A DNA stretch of 36,112 nt from Propionivibrio sp. (GTDB lineage Bacteria; Pseudomonadota; Gammaproteobacteria; Burkholderiales; Rhodocyclaceae), in assembly GCF_016790145.1 (NCBI RefSeq), contig NZ_JAEUOI010000156.1, forward strand, positions 1-36,112, in the 5' to 3' direction. Of this stretch, positions 579 through 8,832 are shown one piece after another (position 1 is the stretch's first letter; every line of letters starts with the position of its first letter). Below the pieces are notes generated by a model. The model made no database searches. It saw nothing but the letters and a program-made list of their open reading frames with translations, and was not told the origin of the DNA. The translations under genes and the position numbers were made by a program.

Positions 579-1063
579 ATCGCGTTTCCTGAGACGCACA
601 ACGTAAAATTGAGGGGCAGCCCGCTTCTGTGGGGTAATGGGGGACAGCATCGCACAGTATTTCTCACAAGCAAGAATGCGAAGCTGAACCTTTTAGCTCT
701 GTTCGGGATTCACGGATCGCCGTAAGGCGAGACTTGAACAATCCCCGCGGAGGTTTGTGGAATTTCACAAGAAAATCCGTGCTTGGCACCTTTGATTCCG
801 CGTAATTGAGCCTGGCCCTTTTTTGCTTTTTTGTAAGCGATTGCCGTGCTTCAGTATTCTGTCTTGACTATGTGGTCCACTTTACTTATTATGGCATTGG
901 GTTTAAGTTGAACTGACCGATTGACACTCGGAATGGGGCGCAACGTCTTCTCCTCCGGCCTTTGGCGCGAACAGGAAGCCGCCTTTTGCGCGCAATGCCT
1001 CATGGCTGTCAACAAAGAAGTATTTGCCGCGAAATTGATCCAGGACACACGGAAGGGAATACC
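579..1063. other. Intergenic region with REP-type tag, sigma70 promoter and leader of the PEP-CTERM gene
   Basis: No convincing gene is seen in this stretch between the nuclease-like gene and the PEP-CTERM gene. At about 641-670 it holds a tag (dyad-poor, GGGGGACAGCATCGCACAG) that recurs in similar form at about 3546-3572. A T-rich stretch lies at 819-832. The sigma70-type promoter at 864-892 and a leader of about 160 nt follow. Within the leader, GCGCAA (938-943) can pair with TTGCGC (986-991). Confidence 0.5.
864..892 (+). promoter_or_regulatory. sigma70-type promoter of the PEP-CTERM gene
   Basis: TTGACT at 864-869 and TATTAT at 887-892 are separated by exactly 17 bp, and each hexamer differs from consensus at one position. 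The expected start of transcription is near 899, giving a leader of about 165 nt before the ATG at 1064. No other gene lies between, so this promoter most likely drives the PEP-CTERM gene. Confidence 0.6.
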
Positions 1064-2018: not shown

Positions 2019-3464
2019 TCAATGCACCGTACACACCATACATGGATCGAAACTGCGCACCACATGATGAACTACCGCCGGTATAGCCTCGTCGGCGGTG
2101 GCCGGCAAACCGGCGAGTGCCTGTTCCAGCGCGCCCGCCTGCCCCTGCGCGTCGCGCGGTGAAAAATTCCAGGTGGTGGGCGCGATGATCTGGTAGCTGT
2201 GGATGCGTCCGCGCCTGACGCTCAGCCAGTGGCCGAGCGATCCGCGGGCGGCTTCGACGAGGCCGGCGCCGGTGCTTTCATCGGCGGGATTTCCGGGAAT
2301 GCACCACGGCTCGCCGGGGGTGATTTCGCTTAGCCAGCGCTCCATCGCCGGGATCACCAGCGCCAGTTCGAGCAGGCGCGCGACCACCCTGGCGGCGACG
2401 CTGCCGCCGACGACCTGCACCATGTCGCGGGCGAGCGGATGGGCGGCGACCATCTGCCGCGCCAGCGCACCGGTTTCAACGACCTGCCCTGCCAGACGCG
2501 GCGCCTTGCACCAGGAGTAGGCCCCCGGTTTCTCGGCCATCGGCAGGGTGCCGCCGCTGGCCGGATGTTGCGGCAAAGCGGCGGCAATATACCAGGCATG
2601 CGAGATGTCTTCGCTGATCGCGCCGGAGTCGAACGGCAGGAGTTGTCCATCCCACAACCCGGCAGGAAACAGGCGTCCCGCCGTCTCCGGGTAACAGCCG
2701 TAGCTCATGAAAAGCTCGGTGCCGCGCCCCAGATGCCACAGGTCGAGATCGTCGGCGATGCGCAGGAAAAGGCGCAGATCGCCGCCGCCGGAACGCTGCT
2801 GCCAGGCACTTAGTTCGTTCCGGCTGGACAAGCCGGCCACCTCTACAAGCGTGCTGCCAAAGGTCACGTTTTCGAGAAAGTTGCGGAAGTCGCGCAGGAT
2901 GCGATGCAGGCGGAAAATCTCCGTGCTTTGCAGCGGGCGCGTTGAACCACCGGGCTGAACGGCCAGGGTATGCGGCCATTTGCCGGCGAGCAGACCCATC
3001 ATCTGCATGAAACGCGCGCGCGCCGGCAGCATTTCGTTCGGCGCCGTGCCGACGGTGGCGCGAAAGCGCTCGACGGTAGCCGCATGCCAGGCTTTGCCGG
3101 CATAGTCGCCCCGCGCAAAATCCGGCATGAAAAATAGATAGAAGTGCGTCAGATGGTCGGCCAGGTTCTCGGTGGCCAGCGTCAGATTGGCGGCCAGGCG
3201 GCCGTTGGGCGGCGCGACGATTCCCGCCGCATCGGCCAGCGCCAGTGCCGACGCCGCCGACTGGGCCACCGAGCAGATGCCGCAGATGCGCGGCACCAGC
3301 GTCAGGGCATCGGCTGGCATCTTGCCCTGCAAAATCTGTTCGAAGCCACGGTACAGCGGGGAGTTGACGTAGGCGGCGGCAATCCGGCCGGCTTCGATGT
3401 CAAGGGTGATTTCAAGATCGCCCTCGACCCGGTTGAAGGGCCCCACGACGCGCCGCGTGTTCAT
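2019..3464 (-). CDS. hoxC: Regulatory (H2-sensing) [NiFe] hydrogenase large subunit HoxC/HupV
   Basis: This 481-residue cytoplasmic subunit binds the NiFe site of the H2 sensor. The N-terminal RICGICS motif (about residues 59-65) and the C-terminal DPCMVC motif supply the four nickel-ligand cysteines. The protein ends at ...DPCMVCTVH with the stop directly after His. It therefore lacks the cleavable C-terminal peptide of catalytic enzymes, which is diagnostic for the HoxC/HupV/HyaB-sensor group. Ile63 in CGIC and Phe110/Phe111 in HFYLFF correspond to the bulky gas-channel residues known from O2-insensitive sensors. The start at 3464 follows the family and lies in a duplicated hoxB/hoxC junction, where TGA of a 25-residue hoxB remnant overlaps ATG. 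The gene is separated from its partner hoxB by an inserted toxin-antitoxin segment. A longer frame to 3566 is junction sequence. Confidence 0.95.
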   Translation of the reverse strand: MNTRRVVGPFNRVEGDLEITLDIEAGRIAAAYVNSPLYRGFEQILQGKMPADALTLVPRICGICSVAQSAASALALADAAGIVAPPNGRLAANLTLATENLADHLTHFYLFFMPDFARGDYAGKAWHAATVERFRATVGTAPNEMLPARARFMQMMGLLAGKWPHTLAVQPGGSTRPLQSTEIFRLHRILRDFRNFLENVTFGSTLVEVAGLSSRNELSAWQQRSGGGDLRLFLRIADDLDLWHLGRGTELFMSYGCYPETAGRLFPAGLWDGQLLPFDSGAISEDISHAWYIAAALPQHPASGGTLPMAEKPGAYSWCKAPRLAGQVVETGALARQMVAAHPLARDMVQVVGGSVAARVVARLLELALVIPAMERWLSEITPGEPWCIPGNPADESTGAGLVEAARGSLGHWLSVRRGRIHSYQIIAPTTWNFSPRDAQGQAGALEQALAGLPATADEAIPAVVHHVVRSFDPCMVCTVH

Positions 3465-3537
3465 TTGCGGCCACGCTTGACGGGCGGCGTACGCTTCAGA
3501 TGGTCGGCCCTGGCGTTCTCGCGCACGCGCGCCGGTG
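3419..3537. repeat. 119-bp direct repeat, copy A (hoxB 3' end / hoxC 5' end)
   Basis: This copy matches 4674-4792 at a constant offset of 1255 with about 7 mismatches in 119 positions (about 94% identity). Read on the minus strand it holds the last 25 codons of hoxB (ending VKRGRK), the TGA/ATG overlap and the first 15 codons of hoxC. Here the hoxC part continues into the intact gene, while the hoxB part is an orphan remnant cut at its 5' side. Beyond 3537 the two copies diverge completely. Confidence 0.9.
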
Positions 3538-3545
3538 AGATAAAT

Positions 3546-3572
3546 GGAGTCAGCATCGCACAGCATCTCTCA
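3546..3572. repeat. Tag resembling the sequence at 641-670, at the left insertion junction
   Basis: CAGCATCGCACAG at 3551-3563 is shared exactly with 645-657. The flanks are similar (GGAGT here, GGGGA there; ATCTCTCA here, ATTTCTCA there). It sits exactly between the truncated hicA and direct repeat copy A, so it may be a remnant of the event that cut hicA. The match is short and could be coincidental in part. Confidence 0.4.
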
Positions 3573-3689
3573 AAAGAAATAATTGCGTCCCATGACTACG
3601 TGACTGCCTGACTGGCGAAGTTTCTCGAACCCCAAGCGCTCCAGCGCCTTGACGATTGCAAGGCCCGAAATGTAGGGTAGCTTAGGCAT
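3570..3689 (-). pseudogene. hicA: Truncated HicA toxin
   Basis: The ATG at 3689 overlaps the hicB stop. Residues 1-33 (MPKLPYISGLAIVKALERLG, then FEKLRQSGSHVVM) match the N-terminal half of HicA mRNA interferases, including the catalytic His in the GSHxx motif. After that the frame runs into unrelated sequence (GRNYFF, then TGA). Normal HicA is about 60-80 residues, so the second half of the double-stranded-RNA-binding fold is missing. The break is at about 3590, next to the tag at 3546-3572 and the duplicated hoxB/hoxC junction. The fragment is too short for the usual gene-length cut-offs. It is expected to be non-toxic. Confidence 0.75.
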
Positions 3690-3888
3690 GGGCAGGTACG
3701 CTAAACGTGGTTACCAGCGGATGACCTTGAAAATGGATCGGGAACTCTGTCAGATAAAGCGCCGTGGCTTCTTGCAAATTTGAGATAGCTTCCTCGACGG
3801 TTTCACCCTGGGTAGTGGTACCAGTTTCAGGGTTCAACGCGATATAGCCCCCTTCTTCGGCGGGAGTAAGTACTGCGGTCAATTCCAT
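3682..3888 (-). CDS. hicB: HicB-type antitoxin
   Basis: This 68-residue protein has the HicB N-terminal domain (RNase H-like partial fold): MELTAVLTPAEEGGYIALNP, a GETVEEAISNLQEATALYL helix, and a short C-terminal strand. It would neutralise HicA. The start at 3888 is preceded by AAAGGA with good spacing. The order hicB-hicA with overlapping stop and start is the reversed arrangement seen in part of the family. It has no C-terminal DNA-binding domain, so autoregulation is not evident. Its toxin partner is truncated, leaving an orphan antitoxin. The module lies inside the interruption between hoxB and hoxC. Confidence 0.8.
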   Translation of the reverse strand: MELTAVLTPAEEGGYIALNPETGTTTQGETVEEAISNLQEATALYLTEFPIHFQGHPLVTTFSVPAHA

Positions 3889-3934
3889 TATGAATTCCTT
3901 TCAGAAAGTGCCATTGTCGCGCGTTTCGGCCTAG

Positions 3935-4010
3935 GGTGCCCATCGTTCAAGGCGAGGGACGCGAAGCGGCTTTATCGCACGGCGCCCCCTGCACCGCAGG
4001 GTTGGGCACC
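3935..4010. repeat. 76-bp imperfect palindrome, attC-like, between higA and hicB
   Basis: GGTGCCCA (3935-3942) is an exact inverted match to TGGGCACC (4003-4010). Read on the minus strand, it begins 3 bp after the higA stop and contains GCCCAAC, a perfect integron R'' core (RYYYAAC). It ends with CGCCTTGAACGATGGGC, a near match to an L'-R' end (GTTRRRY has one mismatch). The inner arms pair poorly. A degenerate integron attC site is possible because toxin-antitoxin genes are common cassettes, but an ordinary intergenic repeat is equally possible. Confidence 0.35.
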
Positions 4011-4013
4011 TCG

Positions 4014-4313
4014 TCAGCCATGACCAGCTTCGGCATGCAACTTCAGCCCAAGTGCACCGATGACTTTAAGGATGGTGTCGAAGTCAGGGCTACGATCACC
4101 GGAGAGCGCTTTGTAAAGACTTTCGCGAGACAGTCCGGCATCGCGCGCGACCTGTGACATGCCCTTGGCACGAGCAATATCGCCAAGTGCTTTGGCAATG
4201 AATGCAGCATCCCCGTCGGCCTCTTCAAGGCAGGCTTCAAGATAAGCGGCCATTTCCTCTGGGGTTCTGAGGTGCTCGGCGACGTCATAGCGAGTGGTAA
4301 GGGTCTTGGTCAT
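4014..4313 (-). CDS. HigA/HI1420-type antitoxin (addiction module antidote)
   Basis: This 99-residue protein reads like the XRE-type antidote that follows HI1419-type killer proteins. It has an N-terminal YDVAEHLRTPEEMAAYLEAC helix region, then a helix-turn-helix around residues 50-90 (ARAKGMSQVARDAGLSRESL, SPDFDTILKVIGALGLKL). It binds the toxin and represses the operon. The order toxin-antitoxin and the 5-bp gap to the toxin stop fit the family. GGAG stands about 7 nt before the ATG at 4313. The likely operator is the palindrome at 4623-4640. Its toxin is frameshifted, so this antitoxin may now serve only as a repressor or be decaying. Confidence 0.82.
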   Translation of the reverse strand: MTKTLTTRYDVAEHLRTPEEMAAYLEACLEEADGDAAFIAKALGDIARAKGMSQVARDAGLSRESLYKALSGDRSPDFDTILKVIGALGLKLHAEAGHG

Positions 4314-4318
4314 GGTTG

Positions 4319-4614
4319 CTACTCCGAAAGATTACGTGCGAGGCGCAATGCTGCATTGATGTCCTTGGCTTGGGTAGTCTTGTCTCCACCAGCCAACAGA
4401 ATGATCAGCTCTCGCCCCCGCTTCTTGAAATACACCCGGTAACCGGGACCGTAGTCGATTCGCAACACCGAGAAACCTTCGCCAACCGACTCGACATCTC
4501 CGGGGTTTCCAGCGGCGAGCCGTTCGATCCTTACCGGACGCGCGCTCTCGCCTGGAGGTCGCGCAAGTCGTCGAGCCACCGAACGAAGAGAACGGTATTG
4601 CGAATTTCAATCAC
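4319..4614 (-). pseudogene. Frameshifted HigB/HI1419-type toxin
   Basis: The family protein (RelE/HigB-like, about 100 residues) is present in two frames. From GTG at 4614 one frame reads VIEIRNTVLFVRWLDDLRDL, then QARARVR, then stop. The next frame continues with VRIERLAAGNPGDVESVGEG, then SVLRIDYGPGYRVYF, GRELIILLAGGDKTTQAKDI, ending at 4319. Adding one base near 4533-4538 restores an uninterrupted alignment of family length (98 residues), so this is a single-base deletion or a sequencing error. A shorter frame from GTG 4579 exists, but its first 15 residues are out of the family frame. Confidence 0.75.
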
Positions 4615-4620
4615 GGCGCA

Positions 4621-4649
4621 AATGTAGCCCAATGGCTACACCTTGTCAA
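4621..4649 (-). promoter_or_regulatory. higBA promoter with an 18-bp palindromic operator
   Basis: On the minus strand TTGACA (4649-4644) and TACATT (4626-4621) are spaced 17 bp. Between and overlapping them is the perfect dyad TGTAGCC-N4-GGCTACA (4623-4640), a good candidate for the binding site of the HigA-type repressor. The predicted transcription start (about 4614) coincides with the GTG start codon, so the toxin mRNA may be leaderless. Confidence 0.6.
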
Positions 4650-4673
4650 TGCCATAGGCGCCGCCCTCAGGAC

Positions 4674-4792
4674 CGCCCTCGACCCGGTTGAAGGGCCCCA
4701 CGACGCGCCGCGAGGTCATTTTCGGCCACGCTTGACGGACGGCGTACGCTTCAGATGGTCGACCCTGGCGTTCTCGCGAACGCGTGCCGGTG
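4674..4792. repeat. 119-bp direct repeat, copy B (hoxB 3' end / hoxC 5' end)
   Basis: This copy is joined to the intact hoxB. It contains the last 25 codons of hoxB, the ATGA overlap at 4719-4716, and the first 15 codons of a hoxC remnant (MTSRRVVGPFNRVEG) cut off at 4674. Compared with copy A, the hoxC part differs by N/T and T/S, and the hoxB part by A/V and P/S plus silent changes. Confidence 0.9.
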
Positions 4793-5708
4793 TTGCCGAC
4801 TTGGAGAGGGCGGCAAGCGCCACGAACCAGGCCTTCGGCATATCGGAGGGCAGGCCGATGGGAATGCCGGCAATCTTCGGGGTGGTTTCAAAAGGATGGC
4901 CGGGCTCCTCAAAACCCGGATCGGTACAGCGGATGCAGGCAAAACCGCCACGCAGGCAGGAGCCCTGGCCATTCCACAGCCGCTGGTTGCAATCGGCATG
5001 GGCTTGCGTTCCCTTGCAACCCAGTTGCTCCATCAGGCAGCCCTGGTCGGAGTGCTTGCCCGCGCTGGCCTTGTACTCGTAATACTCGTTGCGCGGGCAG
5101 CCGTGATGCACCAGTTGGTCGGCATAAAAACGCGGCCGCCCGTAGTCGTCGAGATCGAGCGCGCCAAGCTGGCCGTGCGCCAGTAGCGCCAGCGTTTCGG
5201 TGATCCAGTCCGGATGCGGCGGACAGCCGGAAATGTTGATTACCGGCAGTCCCGAGGGATCGCGAAAGTGGGGGCCGAGCAGGCCGCCGTCGAGTTCGCC
5301 ATCGTATTGCAGGCCACAGGCATCGGTCGGATTGACACCGGCCGCGGTGACCCCGCCATAAGCCGAACAGGTGCCGACGGCAACGACATGCCGCGCCCGT
5401 CCGGCGATCTGCCGGACCCACTCGGCCATCGACTGGCGACCACCGCCAAAGCGATGATAAGCACCGCTGCCCTGCGGCCCGCGCAGCAGCGAACCTTCGA
5501 CGCACAGGACATCGACGGCACGGCGACCGTCGGCACACTCGGCGATCAACTCGCGCGCCTCGTCGACTCCGGCTTCGGAAACGCTGGGATGCCAGAGCAG
5601 CTCGACCCCCTCGTCGGCCAGCACCTGGAACAGCGGGCCATGCTCGTAACCGAGCCAGGACAGTGTGCAGCCGCCACAGCCGCCCGATTGCAACCAGAGC
5701 AGATTCAT
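4716..5708 (-). CDS. hoxB: Regulatory (H2-sensing) [NiFe] hydrogenase small subunit HoxB/HupU
   Basis: This 330-residue iron-sulfur subunit of the cytoplasmic H2 sensor has no Tat signal and begins directly with MNLLWLQSGGCGGCTLSW. This distinguishes it from the exported HybO. Cysteines for the proximal cluster are in CGGC (11, 14), GTCSAYGG and ISGCPPHP. The C-terminal half carries the medial and distal cluster ligands (HHGCPRNEYYEY, DQGCLMEQLGCKG, CLRGGFACIRCTDPGF). The electron relay lets HoxBC signal through a kinase (HoxJ/HupT). The ATG overlaps the hoxA stop (ATGA), so the two are translationally coupled. Its stop at 4716 overlaps the start of a hoxC remnant; the real hoxC now lies 1.25 kb further on, behind toxin-antitoxin genes. 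Confidence 0.95.
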   Translation of the reverse strand: MNLLWLQSGGCGGCTLSWLGYEHGPLFQVLADEGVELLWHPSVSEAGVDEARELIAECADGRRAVDVLCVEGSLLRGPQGSGAYHRFGGGRQSMAEWVRQIAGRARHVVAVGTCSAYGGVTAAGVNPTDACGLQYDGELDGGLLGPHFRDPSGLPVINISGCPPHPDWITETLALLAHGQLGALDLDDYGRPRFYADQLVHHGCPRNEYYEYKASAGKHSDQGCLMEQLGCKGTQAHADCNQRLWNGQGSCLRGGFACIRCTDPGFEEPGHPFETTPKIAGIPIGLPSDMPKAWFVALAALSKSATPARVRENARVDHLKRTPSVKRGRK

Positions 5709-7138
5709 GCTTCCTCCAGTCCAAGACGCGTCAGCTTCATGCGCAAGCCGAGGCGGGTCAGCCCCAGTTCGTCGGCGACGCGCGTCTTGTTGCCCTTGTG
5801 CCGCGCCATCGCAGCGCGGATGAGCTGCTCCTCAAGGCGTTCCAGTTGATGCTTGAGCAAACCGGACTCCCCCTCAAGGTTAGCCGTCGGCTGGGCGGGA
5901 GATTTCACCGGCAGGCGTAGCCGGAGTGAAAGCAGTTCGGCACCCAATACGGGGCCGTCGCCGAGCGCCTGCGCCCGGCGCACTTCGTTTTGCAGCTCGC
6001 GTACATTGCCTGGCCAGGCATAAGCGAGCAGGCACTGCATCGCCTCGTCCGATAGCCGCTGCTCGCTCTGCGCCGATCTTTTGAGCAGTTCGTCGGCAAT
6101 CAGCGGGATGTCCTGTGGCCGTTCGCGCAACGCCGGCATATACAGCGTCATGCCGGCGATGCGGTAATACAGATCCTCGCGGAAGCGGCCGCTGGCGACA
6201 TCGGCATCCAGATCGCGATTGGTGGCGGCGATGATACGCACGTCCACGGCGACCGGTCGCGGGCTGCCGAGCGGGCGGACCTCGCCTTCCTGCAGGGCGC
6301 GCAGCAGCTTGACCTGAAACGCCGGCGAGGTCTCGCCGATTTCATCGAGGAACAGCGTGCCGCCGTCGGCTTGCTGAAACAGCCCGATGCGATCTTCGGT
6401 GGCCCCGGTAAAGGCACCGCGTTTGTGGCCGAAGAGCTCGCCTTCGAGCAGTGTGTCGGGCAGCGCGCTACAGTTTTCCACCACGAAAGAACGTTCCGCA
6501 CGCGGGCTCGCGTAGTGAATGGCACGCGCCAGCAATTCCTTGCCGGTACCCGAATCGCCGGTGATCAGTACCGACAGGTCGTGTCGGGCGATTTTTTTTG
6601 CCAGCTCGCAGACCTCGTTCAGCGGACTGTCGGCAGCACGCGTCAGGCGCTCGAAACCGGCCTGCGCCTTGGCCTGGATGCGCCGGCCGGCGACCTGGCG
6701 CGCCAGATATTCGGGGCTGTCGCGCAGTTCCAGCGACAGACGCTGATTCTCCTGCTGCAGGCGCCACAGGTCGGCCGCACTCTTCAGGGTCAACAGCAAC
6801 TGGTCGGCATGCCAGGGCTTCATCAGGTATTGCCAGATGCCGGCTTCGTTGATTCCGGCGATGATGTCTTCGGCATCGGTATACCCCGACAGAATCAGAC
6901 GCACGGTGTCCGGCCACTGGTCGCGCACCGAACGCAGGAAGTCCACCCCGGAGGTGCCGGGCATGCGCTGGTCGGAGAGCACGATGTGCACGAACTCGCG
7001 TTCCATCACGGCAATGCCCTCCTCGGCCGAGGCGGCGGTGAATACCGTGAAGTCTTCTTCCAGCGTGCGCCGCAGCGTTTCCTGCGAGCGCGGTTCGTCG
7101 TCGACCACCAGAACGGACAAGGGGGCGCGCAGGGTCAT
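5705..7138 (-). CDS. hoxA: sigma54-dependent response regulator HoxA/HupR
   Basis: This 477-residue NtrC-type activator controls the hydrogenase genes. The receiver domain occupies residues 7-120, with acidic DD at 13-14, phospho-acceptor Asp56 (VLSDQRMPG) and Lys107 (LMKPW). The AAA+ domain has Walker A GDSGTGKE and the sigma54-contact loop GAFTGA. A C-terminal Fis-type helix-turn-helix (NKTRVADELGLTRLGL) ends the protein. The start at 7138 precedes the receiver domain and overlaps the hoxX stop. In well-studied relatives the unphosphorylated form is active and the kinase HoxJ/HupT inactivates it. No such kinase is present here. The sigma54 promoter at 25562-25577 is its obvious target. Confidence 0.93.
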   Translation of the reverse strand: MTLRAPLSVLVVDDEPRSQETLRRTLEEDFTVFTAASAEEGIAVMEREFVHIVLSDQRMPGTSGVDFLRSVRDQWPDTVRLILSGYTDAEDIIAGINEAGIWQYLMKPWHADQLLLTLKSAADLWRLQQENQRLSLELRDSPEYLARQVAGRRIQAKAQAGFERLTRAADSPLNEVCELAKKIARHDLSVLITGDSGTGKELLARAIHYASPRAERSFVVENCSALPDTLLEGELFGHKRGAFTGATEDRIGLFQQADGGTLFLDEIGETSPAFQVKLLRALQEGEVRPLGSPRPVAVDVRIIAATNRDLDADVASGRFREDLYYRIAGMTLYMPALRERPQDIPLIADELLKRSAQSEQRLSDEAMQCLLAYAWPGNVRELQNEVRRAQALGDGPVLGAELLSLRLRLPVKSPAQPTANLEGESGLLKHQLERLEEQLIRAAMARHKGNKTRVADELGLTRLGLRMKLTRLGLEEA

Positions 7139-8832
7139 GGGATGCTCCAGCCGAGTTCGCGATGTCGCGCCAGATGACGCGGCGTCCACGACGCTGGCGT
7201 CTTGCGAACGAAATGATGGCGGGCGATGTGATAACTCGGGTCAAAGCCGTAAAAATTGCGCCGCATGTGCGACAACTCCTCCTCGCGATAGGCGGCCAGC
7301 GGCTTGGCCGCTTCGTCGCGCGCCCGTGCCGCGCACTTCGCGGAGATCTTCGCGGCAAAGTCAGGGGCGGCCGCGAGTTCGGCGGCACGACGTTCCACTT
7401 CCTTACGAAAGGCTGGTATGTCACCGGCCAGGCAGGCATCGGTTAAGCCAATCTCCAGCGCCCGCTGTGCGGTCAGAGGTTGCCGGTCGCGCATGATGGC
7501 GCCTGCCGCATCGGCACCGACCCGGCGCGGCAGCAGGTAGGTCCAGTATTCCGAGCCAAAGAGATTGCCCATGTTCTTGTAATGCGGATTGAGTATCACC
7601 GCCGCGCGCGCCCAGACGAAATCGGCTGCCCGCGCCAGGAAGCAGCCGCCGGCACCGGTGTTGCCGCCGAGCGCGGCGACGGTGAGCTGCTGCCCGCTGC
7701 CAATCAGTTCGAGTGCCAGATCGTTCATGGCGTTGATGTTACGCCAGGATTCGTCGGCTGCCGAGCCCTCGCCCAGACTGGCGGCCTCGATCACGTTGAG
7801 GTGGATGCCGTTCGACCAGAAATCGGCACCGCCCATGAGCACCAGAATCCGCAGCGGACGCTGCCTGGCCCACACCAGCGCCGAACGCAAGCGTTGGCAG
7901 TGCGCGGTGGACATCGCGCCATTGTAGAACTCGAAATGCAGGAAGCCGACGGCACCACTTTCTTCGTAGGCGATGTCCTGCCAGGTAGCAGAACCGGCGC
8001 GCCACCAGCTTTCCAGCGGCGCCTCCGGCACTGACCTGGATTCGCTGTCGAAGGCCAGGGTCGCCGGCAACTTGATGCTGCCGGCACGCTTGACGTGGCC
8101 GATCCACACGGCGCCATCGCGCGTTGCCCGCAGCAGGGCCGTCTCGCGGCGGGCGATGACGGCGCCCGGCTCGCCGCGCAGGGTGGCCTCCGGCCAGGCG
8201 TCGAATAAATGGCATGGCTGACCAAACAGGCTGTCGGCGACACCGGGGAATCCGTCGGCGGCAGCGATCTTGCGCAATACCGTCGTGCTGTCGTCATGAC
8301 GCCAGTCAATGGCGCGCCCGGCCTGCGGCAGCAGCGGCCGCCACTGGCTGACTAGGGGACGTTGCGGCTGGAAGCCAGATTGCGCTACGCGCTGTACCGC
8401 CTGCAAGACCGCAGTGCACGCGGCCTGCGTCACTTCGTTGCGGTAAATGCTCGATTTCTTTGCCGCCCGCATCGGAAAACTGGCGCTGGCCCACACCGGG
8501 CCGGCATCCATTTCCGCCTCGGCCTGCAGCACGGTGACTCCCCACTCAGCAACGCCGGCCTGAATCGCCCAGTCGAGCGCCGAGGGGCCGCGGTCGCCGA
8601 CGACGCCGGGATGAACGATGAGGCACAGGTGCCGCGACCAGACAGATTCGGGGATCGCCCGGCGCAGGTAGGGCGCAACGATCAGCTCCGGTCGAAACAG
8701 CATCACCGCTTCCTCGGTGACCGTATCGGCGATATCGAATTCGATGGATATGTCATGCCCGCGCAGCCGCAGTTCGGCGGCAAGACGTTGCGTCAGGCTG
8801 TTGAAGGCGTGCGTGAGCAGCAAAATACGCAT
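7135..8832 (-). CDS. hoxX: HoxX/HypX, CO-ligand synthesis enzyme for hydrogenase maturation
   Basis: This 565-residue two-domain protein makes the CO ligand of the NiFe site from formyl-tetrahydrofolate under aerobic conditions. The N-terminal half resembles formyltransferases (HPGVVGDRGPSALDWA) and the C-terminal half an enoyl-CoA hydratase/isomerase (GGNTGAGGCFLARAADFVWA). Family knowledge is that formyl is moved to CoA and then decarbonylated. The start at 8832 (MRILLLTHAFNSLTQRL) matches the family; upstream in-frame codons belong to the end of hypE. It lies 10 nt after hypE and its stop overlaps the hoxA start, which makes it part of the hyp operon. Its presence suggests that hydrogenase is assembled while O2 is present. 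Confidence 0.92.
   Translation of the reverse strand: MRILLLTHAFNSLTQRLAAELRLRGHDISIEFDIADTVTEEAVMLFRPELIVAPYLRRAIPESVWSRHLCLIVHPGVVGDRGPSALDWAIQAGVAEWGVTVLQAEAEMDAGPVWASASFPMRAAKKSSIYRNEVTQAACTAVLQAVQRVAQSGFQPQRPLVSQWRPLLPQAGRAIDWRHDDSTTVLRKIAAADGFPGVADSLFGQPCHLFDAWPEATLRGEPGAVIARRETALLRATRDGAVWIGHVKRAGSIKLPATLAFDSESRSVPEAPLESWWRAGSATWQDIAYEESGAVGFLHFEFYNGAMSTAHCQRLRSALVWARQRPLRILVLMGGADFWSNGIHLNVIEAASLGEGSAADESWRNINAMNDLALELIGSGQQLTVAALGGNTGAGGCFLARAADFVWARAAVILNPHYKNMGNLFGSEYWTYLLPRRVGADAAGAIMRDRQPLTAQRALEIGLTDACLAGDIPAFRKEVERRAAELAAAPDFAAKISAKCAARARDEAAKPLAAYREEELSHMRRNFYGFDPSYHIARHHFVRKTPASWTPRHLARHRELGWSIP

Follow-up and report, generated by a model that had tools for sequence, protein, structure and literature searches.

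A doubled hoxB/hoxC junction encloses probable integron-cassette remnants in a Propionivibrio regulatory hydrogenase locus

Introduction

In Escherichia coli conjugation experiments in which small plasmids were cut in the recipient, a polymerase chain reaction product indicating a duplication was obtained from 56 of 60 Lac- clones, and the duplications in 14 sequenced clones, 109–950 bp long, were ascribed to one crossover with a circle missing part of the homology (PMC3240628). Here, we examine a locus of similar appearance in Propionivibrio sp. (assembly GCF_016790145.1, contig NZ_JAEUOI010000156.1), where hoxB and hoxC, encoding the small and large subunits of a sensor-type [NiFe] hydrogenase, are separated by DNA that lies between two copies of their own junction. 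We refer to the whole 36,112 nt stretch analysed as the window; it constitutes contig C47 in a genome of 4.05 Mb and 239 contigs. As in the single-crossover insertions described in that part of the E. coli study, foreign DNA lies between direct homologous copies (~100–950 bp) and there is no transposase, but the E. coli case involved laboratory plasmids and cloned homology, whereas the copies in the window differ by 6 % and no donor was found (PMC3240628).

The DNA between the copies is like the toxin-antitoxin cassettes of chromosomal integrons, as characterized in the relevant sections of PMC11023631, in that there is an attC site with adjoining toxin-antitoxin genes, and integrases are found elsewhere in the genome. 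Unlike the cassettes covered there, it has no adjoining integrase, only one attC site, both ends cut and broken toxins, and it lies inside a host operon (PMC11023631). As a short lineage-specific insert it also resembles small variable segments ascribed to illegitimate recombination, 10–18 % of which were repeat-flanked in the material reported, though those repeats are mostly <30 bp and the ones in the window are 119–126 bp (PMC2884548).

The hoxB–hoxC junction is present twice

The junction formed by the end of hoxB and the start of hoxC occurs as two direct copies (3412–3537 and 4667–4792, offset 1255) that align without gaps at 117 of 126 positions. Within them, a core (3419–3537 and 4674–4792) is identical at 112/119 positions (94.1 %), with seven differing sites and a longest identical run of 39 bp, and the next-best same-strand pair of 119-mers in the window, among ~6.4e8 pairs at least 130 bases apart, matches at 73 of 119. 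A preliminary description of the window had reported two direct 119 bp copies with this offset and ~94 % identity, copy 1 continuing into an intact hoxC and copy 2 into an intact hoxB, and this was borne out, as both genes are complete and match the expected Pfam families (Table 1). The separation of about 1.14 kb given there is real but has to be corrected: from the last HoxB residue to the hoxC start there are 1,254 nt, and the non-repeated insert (3538–4666) is 1,129 bp long. The subunits can be assigned to a regulatory hydrogenase because the [NiFe] small and large subunits adjoin a HoxA-type regulator, and the nearest relative, Propionivibrio locus L032, shares 91 % identity in HoxB and 85 % in hoxC.

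The arrangement was compared with 109 other loci (~95 distinct). Eighty of these, the named set, were the best 80 of 591 loci, and 29 came from the family, in which HoxB relatives, distant ones included, were found in 170 of 297 genomes; 30 family loci were taken, one of them being the window's own, and 14 of the remaining 29 repeat sequences of the named set. The hoxB–hoxC gap ranges from -7 to 297 nt in all 109, hence none shares the insert, and a shared ancient arrangement was not seen. It was stated previously that the two genes normally overlap; this is true of L032, but a gap of 0 or less was found in only 33 of the 80 named loci (29 have 1–50 nt and 18 have 51–297 nt) and in 14 of the 29 family loci. 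A search of the 109 loci for a second junction copy gave additional matches of at least 50 bp in L035, L081 and L085 (inverted) and in L063 (direct); these are 70–75 % identical and fall in query sequence past the end of hoxB, so that none of them resembles the duplicate in the window. The 115-nt gap of the Sulfuritalea type (L035, L039, L043 and L121) was considered as an intermediate and rejected, because in L035, L039 and L043 it consists of other, palindromic DNA and does not contain a copy of the junction. The similar palindromic DNA in these three gaps represents a second way of separating hoxB from hoxC.

The split arrangement with its doubled junction is therefore real and unusual, while its parts are known and the event is of a known kind. 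A literature search for an insertion of this sort listed papers that, judging by their titles, deal with vertebrate Hox genes or with animal or human genomes. Judging from the sequence of the two copies, recombination between them could possibly restore the ancestral order.

Table 1. Features of the hoxB–hoxC region of the window
Feature	Position	Strand	Remarks
hoxC, large subunit	2019–3464	minus	Complete, 481 aa; PF00374
Junction copy 1	3412–3537 (core 3419–3537)	minus	hoxB-tail remnant and start of working hoxC
31-codon frame (putative)	3461–3556	minus	Repeat DNA and hoxB tail; stop overlaps hoxC start
REP-like dispersed repeat, truncated	3538–3584	unstranded	Abuts copy 1; copies at C187, C1, C90 and window 629–677
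HicA toxin fragment	3570–3689	minus	PF07927 positions 4–25 of 58, then stop; ends inside REP-like repeat
HicB-like open reading frame, 68 aa	3682–3888	minus	DUF7387, 27.0 bits, just under the 27.9 cut-off; no notable NCBIfam match
attC-like site, GCCCATC...GTTGGGC	3938–4007	plus	75 bits, covariance model including window copy
Antitoxin, HI1420-type, helix-turn-helix	4014–4313	minus	Intact, 99 aa; PF21716, TIGR02684
RelE/ParE (HI1419-type) toxin gene, frame broken	4319–4614	minus	DNA alignment with L008, L009 and L010; start 4614 by eye
Junction copy 2	4667–4792 (core 4674–4792)	minus	End of working hoxB and 27-codon hoxC-like start
hoxB, sensor-type small [NiFe]-hydrogenase subunit	4716–5708	minus	Complete, 330 aa; Pfam Oxidored_q6, NiFe_hyd_SSU_C

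The insert and integron cassettes

The insert is very probably decayed integron-cassette DNA. The attC family was recognized from short stretches of the insert that recur in the genome and the genus, some of them reading GCCCAAC...GTTGGGC, which is the textbook attC form. A covariance model was built from nine sites, one of them from the window (150 of 1,483 first-look candidates were scored), and finds at least 23 matches in the genome at E≤0.01, that is 22 besides the one in the window, several of them 0.7–1.6 kb apart. Sites homologous to the one in the window are present in L015, L019, L021, L022, L024 and L026. The window site has R''/R' boxes and belongs to this genomic family, one box being GCCCATC instead of RYYYAAC, and its folding energy is no better than that of shuffled sequences (z -0.57, and -1.97 for the L022 site). 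Two integron integrases score over the curated cut-off on other contigs, whereas the matches in 14 control genomes all fall below it. Both integrases (C25:216–1160 and C92:18720–19661) are full-length and lie near contig ends.

Within 3501–4700, GTTRRRY occurs at 4001, inside the attC site, and its complement RYYYAAC only at 3832. The internal attC border fits the G/TTRRRY crossover point and neither end of the insert does, indicating that the insert is derived from cassettes and is not an intact cassette. The preliminary description had covered the insert in part, overlooking the integron-cassette origin, the attC site and the dispersed repeat that abuts copy 1. This repeat, which we take to be of the REP (repetitive extragenic palindromic) kind from the palindromic look of its other copies, has four further matches in the genome at E≤2.3e-4; the copy at 629–677 is 78 % identical to the one in the insert. 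L175 (G000:C187) repeats the relative order of the insert: an attC-like site (97–166) and a REP-like repeat (803–851) are separated by ~640 bp, and between them lies a reading frame that was judged by eye to be antitoxin-like. Four matches to Y1 transposases over the cut-off were seen on C1, C19, C233 and C238, and also in five of the 14 control genomes.

All genes of the insert lie on the hox strand. What had been called a toxin-antitoxin segment is not a working one: the HicA piece stops at profile position 25 of 58, the RelE/ParE frame is broken, and neither module retains the complete toxin frame of a type II system. The in-frame piece of the second toxin (4319–4576) matches TIGR02683 only from profile position 27 onward, and relatives of this toxin have open frames of 98 aa in L008 and L169 (G009). 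The intact antitoxin gene has four window-private changes in 300 positions, one of which alters a residue, and the name HicB is given to the product of the small frame at 3682–3888 because the HicA fragment adjoins it. As the toxin is broken in both modules, each of which otherwise has an antitoxin or antitoxin-like frame, addiction is unlikely, and there is no evidence of a present function for the insert. No transposase was seen among its reading frames of ≥50 aa, four frames or pieces having been searched against families, in agreement with what was stated earlier; with no transposase and a duplication of 119–126 bp rather than a short one, the insert does not have the features of an insertion sequence or transposon.

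Expression of hoxC

In copy 1, 44 codons of the hoxB frame are open. This stretch includes an ATG (3556), and its stop forms the same ATGA overlap with the hoxC start; by eye, no clear ribosome site specific to hoxC is present there. Hence, of the proposal that translational coupling of the two subunits is broken, the loss of coupling to hoxB itself stands, but an open frame still ends at the hoxC start. Translation of hoxC may begin at the old ATGA site, possibly after the short hoxB-tail frame, and re-initiation from that frame is possible on its sequence. Because the genes of the insert are in hox orientation, hoxC may still be read through from hoxA–hoxB; alternatively, it may be transcribed from promoter-like sites in the insert. 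On the hox strand of 3300–5000 there are two promoter-like sites against 0.7 expected and three terminator-like sites against 1.5 expected, numbers that are too small to build on.

Origin of the doubled junction

The route that we prefer, with slightly less than even confidence, is integration of a circularized fragment carrying a slightly divergent junction by a single crossover. A small DNA fragment comprising cassette DNA and the hoxBC junction of a somewhat divergent strain would have been circularized and, through one crossover within the junction, integrated into the chromosome. This would double the junction and leave an unbroken hoxB to one side of the insert and an unbroken hoxC to the other. 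The insertion would have been tolerated because both genes are left whole, and if the circle carried the junction of another strain the 6 % difference between the copies follows at once. When polarized using L032 and seven further relatives, four sites are derived in copy 2, two in copy 1 and one in both, and the possession by each copy of its own derived bases is as would be expected of two alleles. The cores differ from each other at 7/119 sites and from L032 at 18 and 20 of 119, which points to either an old event or a well-separated donor strain; if old, and assuming even rates, the event would have taken place at about one third of the time depth of the split from L032.

Several observations weigh against this route. 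Neither a donor nor a same-lineage strain with an empty site was found, hoxB being present in only two of 28 genomes of the genus, that of the window and G006. The incoming molecule must have had cassette DNA already joined to a hoxBC fragment. Nucleotide identity to L032 is 81.9 % for hoxB and 80.8 % for hoxC and shows no step, so that a larger donor tract around the junction was rejected; the two genes are equally distant from L032 and none is visible. One terminator-like site in the insert (4447–4435) is no point in favour of read-through into hoxC. The polarity of the changes fits duplication in place followed by divergence equally well. Finally, homology-facilitated illegitimate recombination proper, as set out in the part of the E. 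coli study concerned with it, leaves deletions and not duplications (PMC3240628).

Duplication in place competes closely with the single crossover, from which the data do not distinguish it, and the choice between them is a judgement; we regard duplication in place as a serious though lesser possibility. Cassette DNA would have been captured at a break with staggered or resected ends, or placed between tandem copies made earlier, the 119–126 bp junction being copied from within the same chromosome, and the two copies would then have diverged. Consistent with this, both copies share bases absent from L032 while each has derived changes of its own, and the broken toxins fit an old insertion. However, no relaxation is apparent in the non-working halves, with four derived changes in the working and four in the non-working halves, a comparison of low power.

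Other locations of the cassette bear on the same question. The antitoxin/toxin cassette is found in three other genomes of the genus, G001, G026 and G009, with identities of 92, 88 and 82 % among the three. In G009 (L169, G009:C72) it is flanked by a 55-bp direct repeat (2912–2966 and 4102–4156, 85 % identical, offset 1190) that may represent a second local duplication. When G009 was searched with either copy, the two copies were the only strong matches, the next best having E 0.004. Immediately after the right copy comes a gene that is conserved in the genus, while the 55 bp itself is not among the stretches matched in other genomes of the genus, and the repeat is no more than a candidate for copied host DNA. 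It removes one argument against duplication in place and moves the balance slightly towards it, and a mode of entry that leaves flanking copies may recur. Against this, nothing comparable is seen at the two other sites of the cassette, G001 having no such repeat and G026 no more than a match of 23 bp (E 0.007). In G026 (L009, ~1304–2203) the cassette directly abuts the end of another host gene, half an attC site remains, and no single open frame is listed for the toxin.

A survey of 16 stretches besides the window (13 from this genome and three from related genomes) found flanking direct repeats in one, L169, and a general habit of cassettes copying flanking DNA was therefore rejected. Other direct repeats seen in the survey were in L168 (8120/9811, 78 % of 96, away from the cassette), L171 (451–774, tandem) and L175 (3421/8270, 77 % of 87), and the survey also showed three palindromes. 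It is quite unlikely that the cassette enters by a recurring copying route (two of four sites in the genus), that the copied hoxBC junction was retained because it saved both genes and that the hoxB tail now serves as a leader frame (3461–3556) coupling hoxC, all three being taken jointly.

The remaining explanations fare worse. Direct repeats that restore target genes are typical of site-specific integrating elements, prophage e14 in icd being a precedent for such an attachment site, and the insert might be what is left of an element with an attachment site resembling the hoxBC junction, in which case the repeats would be attL and attR. We consider this quite unlikely, as no integrase was seen among the reading frames of the insert, none of the 109 other loci has an insert of >297 nt at this site, one exact degenerate hoxC-start pattern was unmatched in viral contigs and the region was unmatched in phage records. 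Plasmid records gave 96 matches, none covering 80 % of the query; among the 15 listed, three are to a toxin-antitoxin pair and 12 to hoxBC-like DNA, with the two flanks within ~340 bp. An assembly or binning artefact, for which the fragmentation of the assembly (239 contigs) could be cited, is highly unlikely, since it would need two separate novel joints and the longest identical run common to the copies is 39 bases. Least probable is insertion of cassettes by an integron integrase at a secondary (attG-type) site, to which the attC site and the two integrases might point, since neither end of the insert is an attC core and integration at secondary sites is not known to copy 119 bp of target.

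Neighbourhood of the locus

Upstream of hoxB, 5705–7189 encodes a response regulator with a sigma-54 domain, as expected for hoxA. Among ten reading frames scanned farther along the window are those of HypD, HypF and a protein of the CobW/HypB type, and those of a second [NiFe] hydrogenase accompanied by NrfD and iron-sulphur proteins. At the contig end beyond hoxC there is a cut attC-like site (1–45, 31.7 bits), and the reading frame beside it (48–650) has a weak Mrr-type match below the cut-off; together they suggest that cassette DNA is also present on that side.

Significance

With one case in one assembly and one weaker parallel, the reach of these findings is modest. They do indicate that foreign DNA can be accommodated within a gene overlap of a compact operon with both genes kept, the overlap being doubled, and they provide a case of integron-cassette debris inside a host operon.

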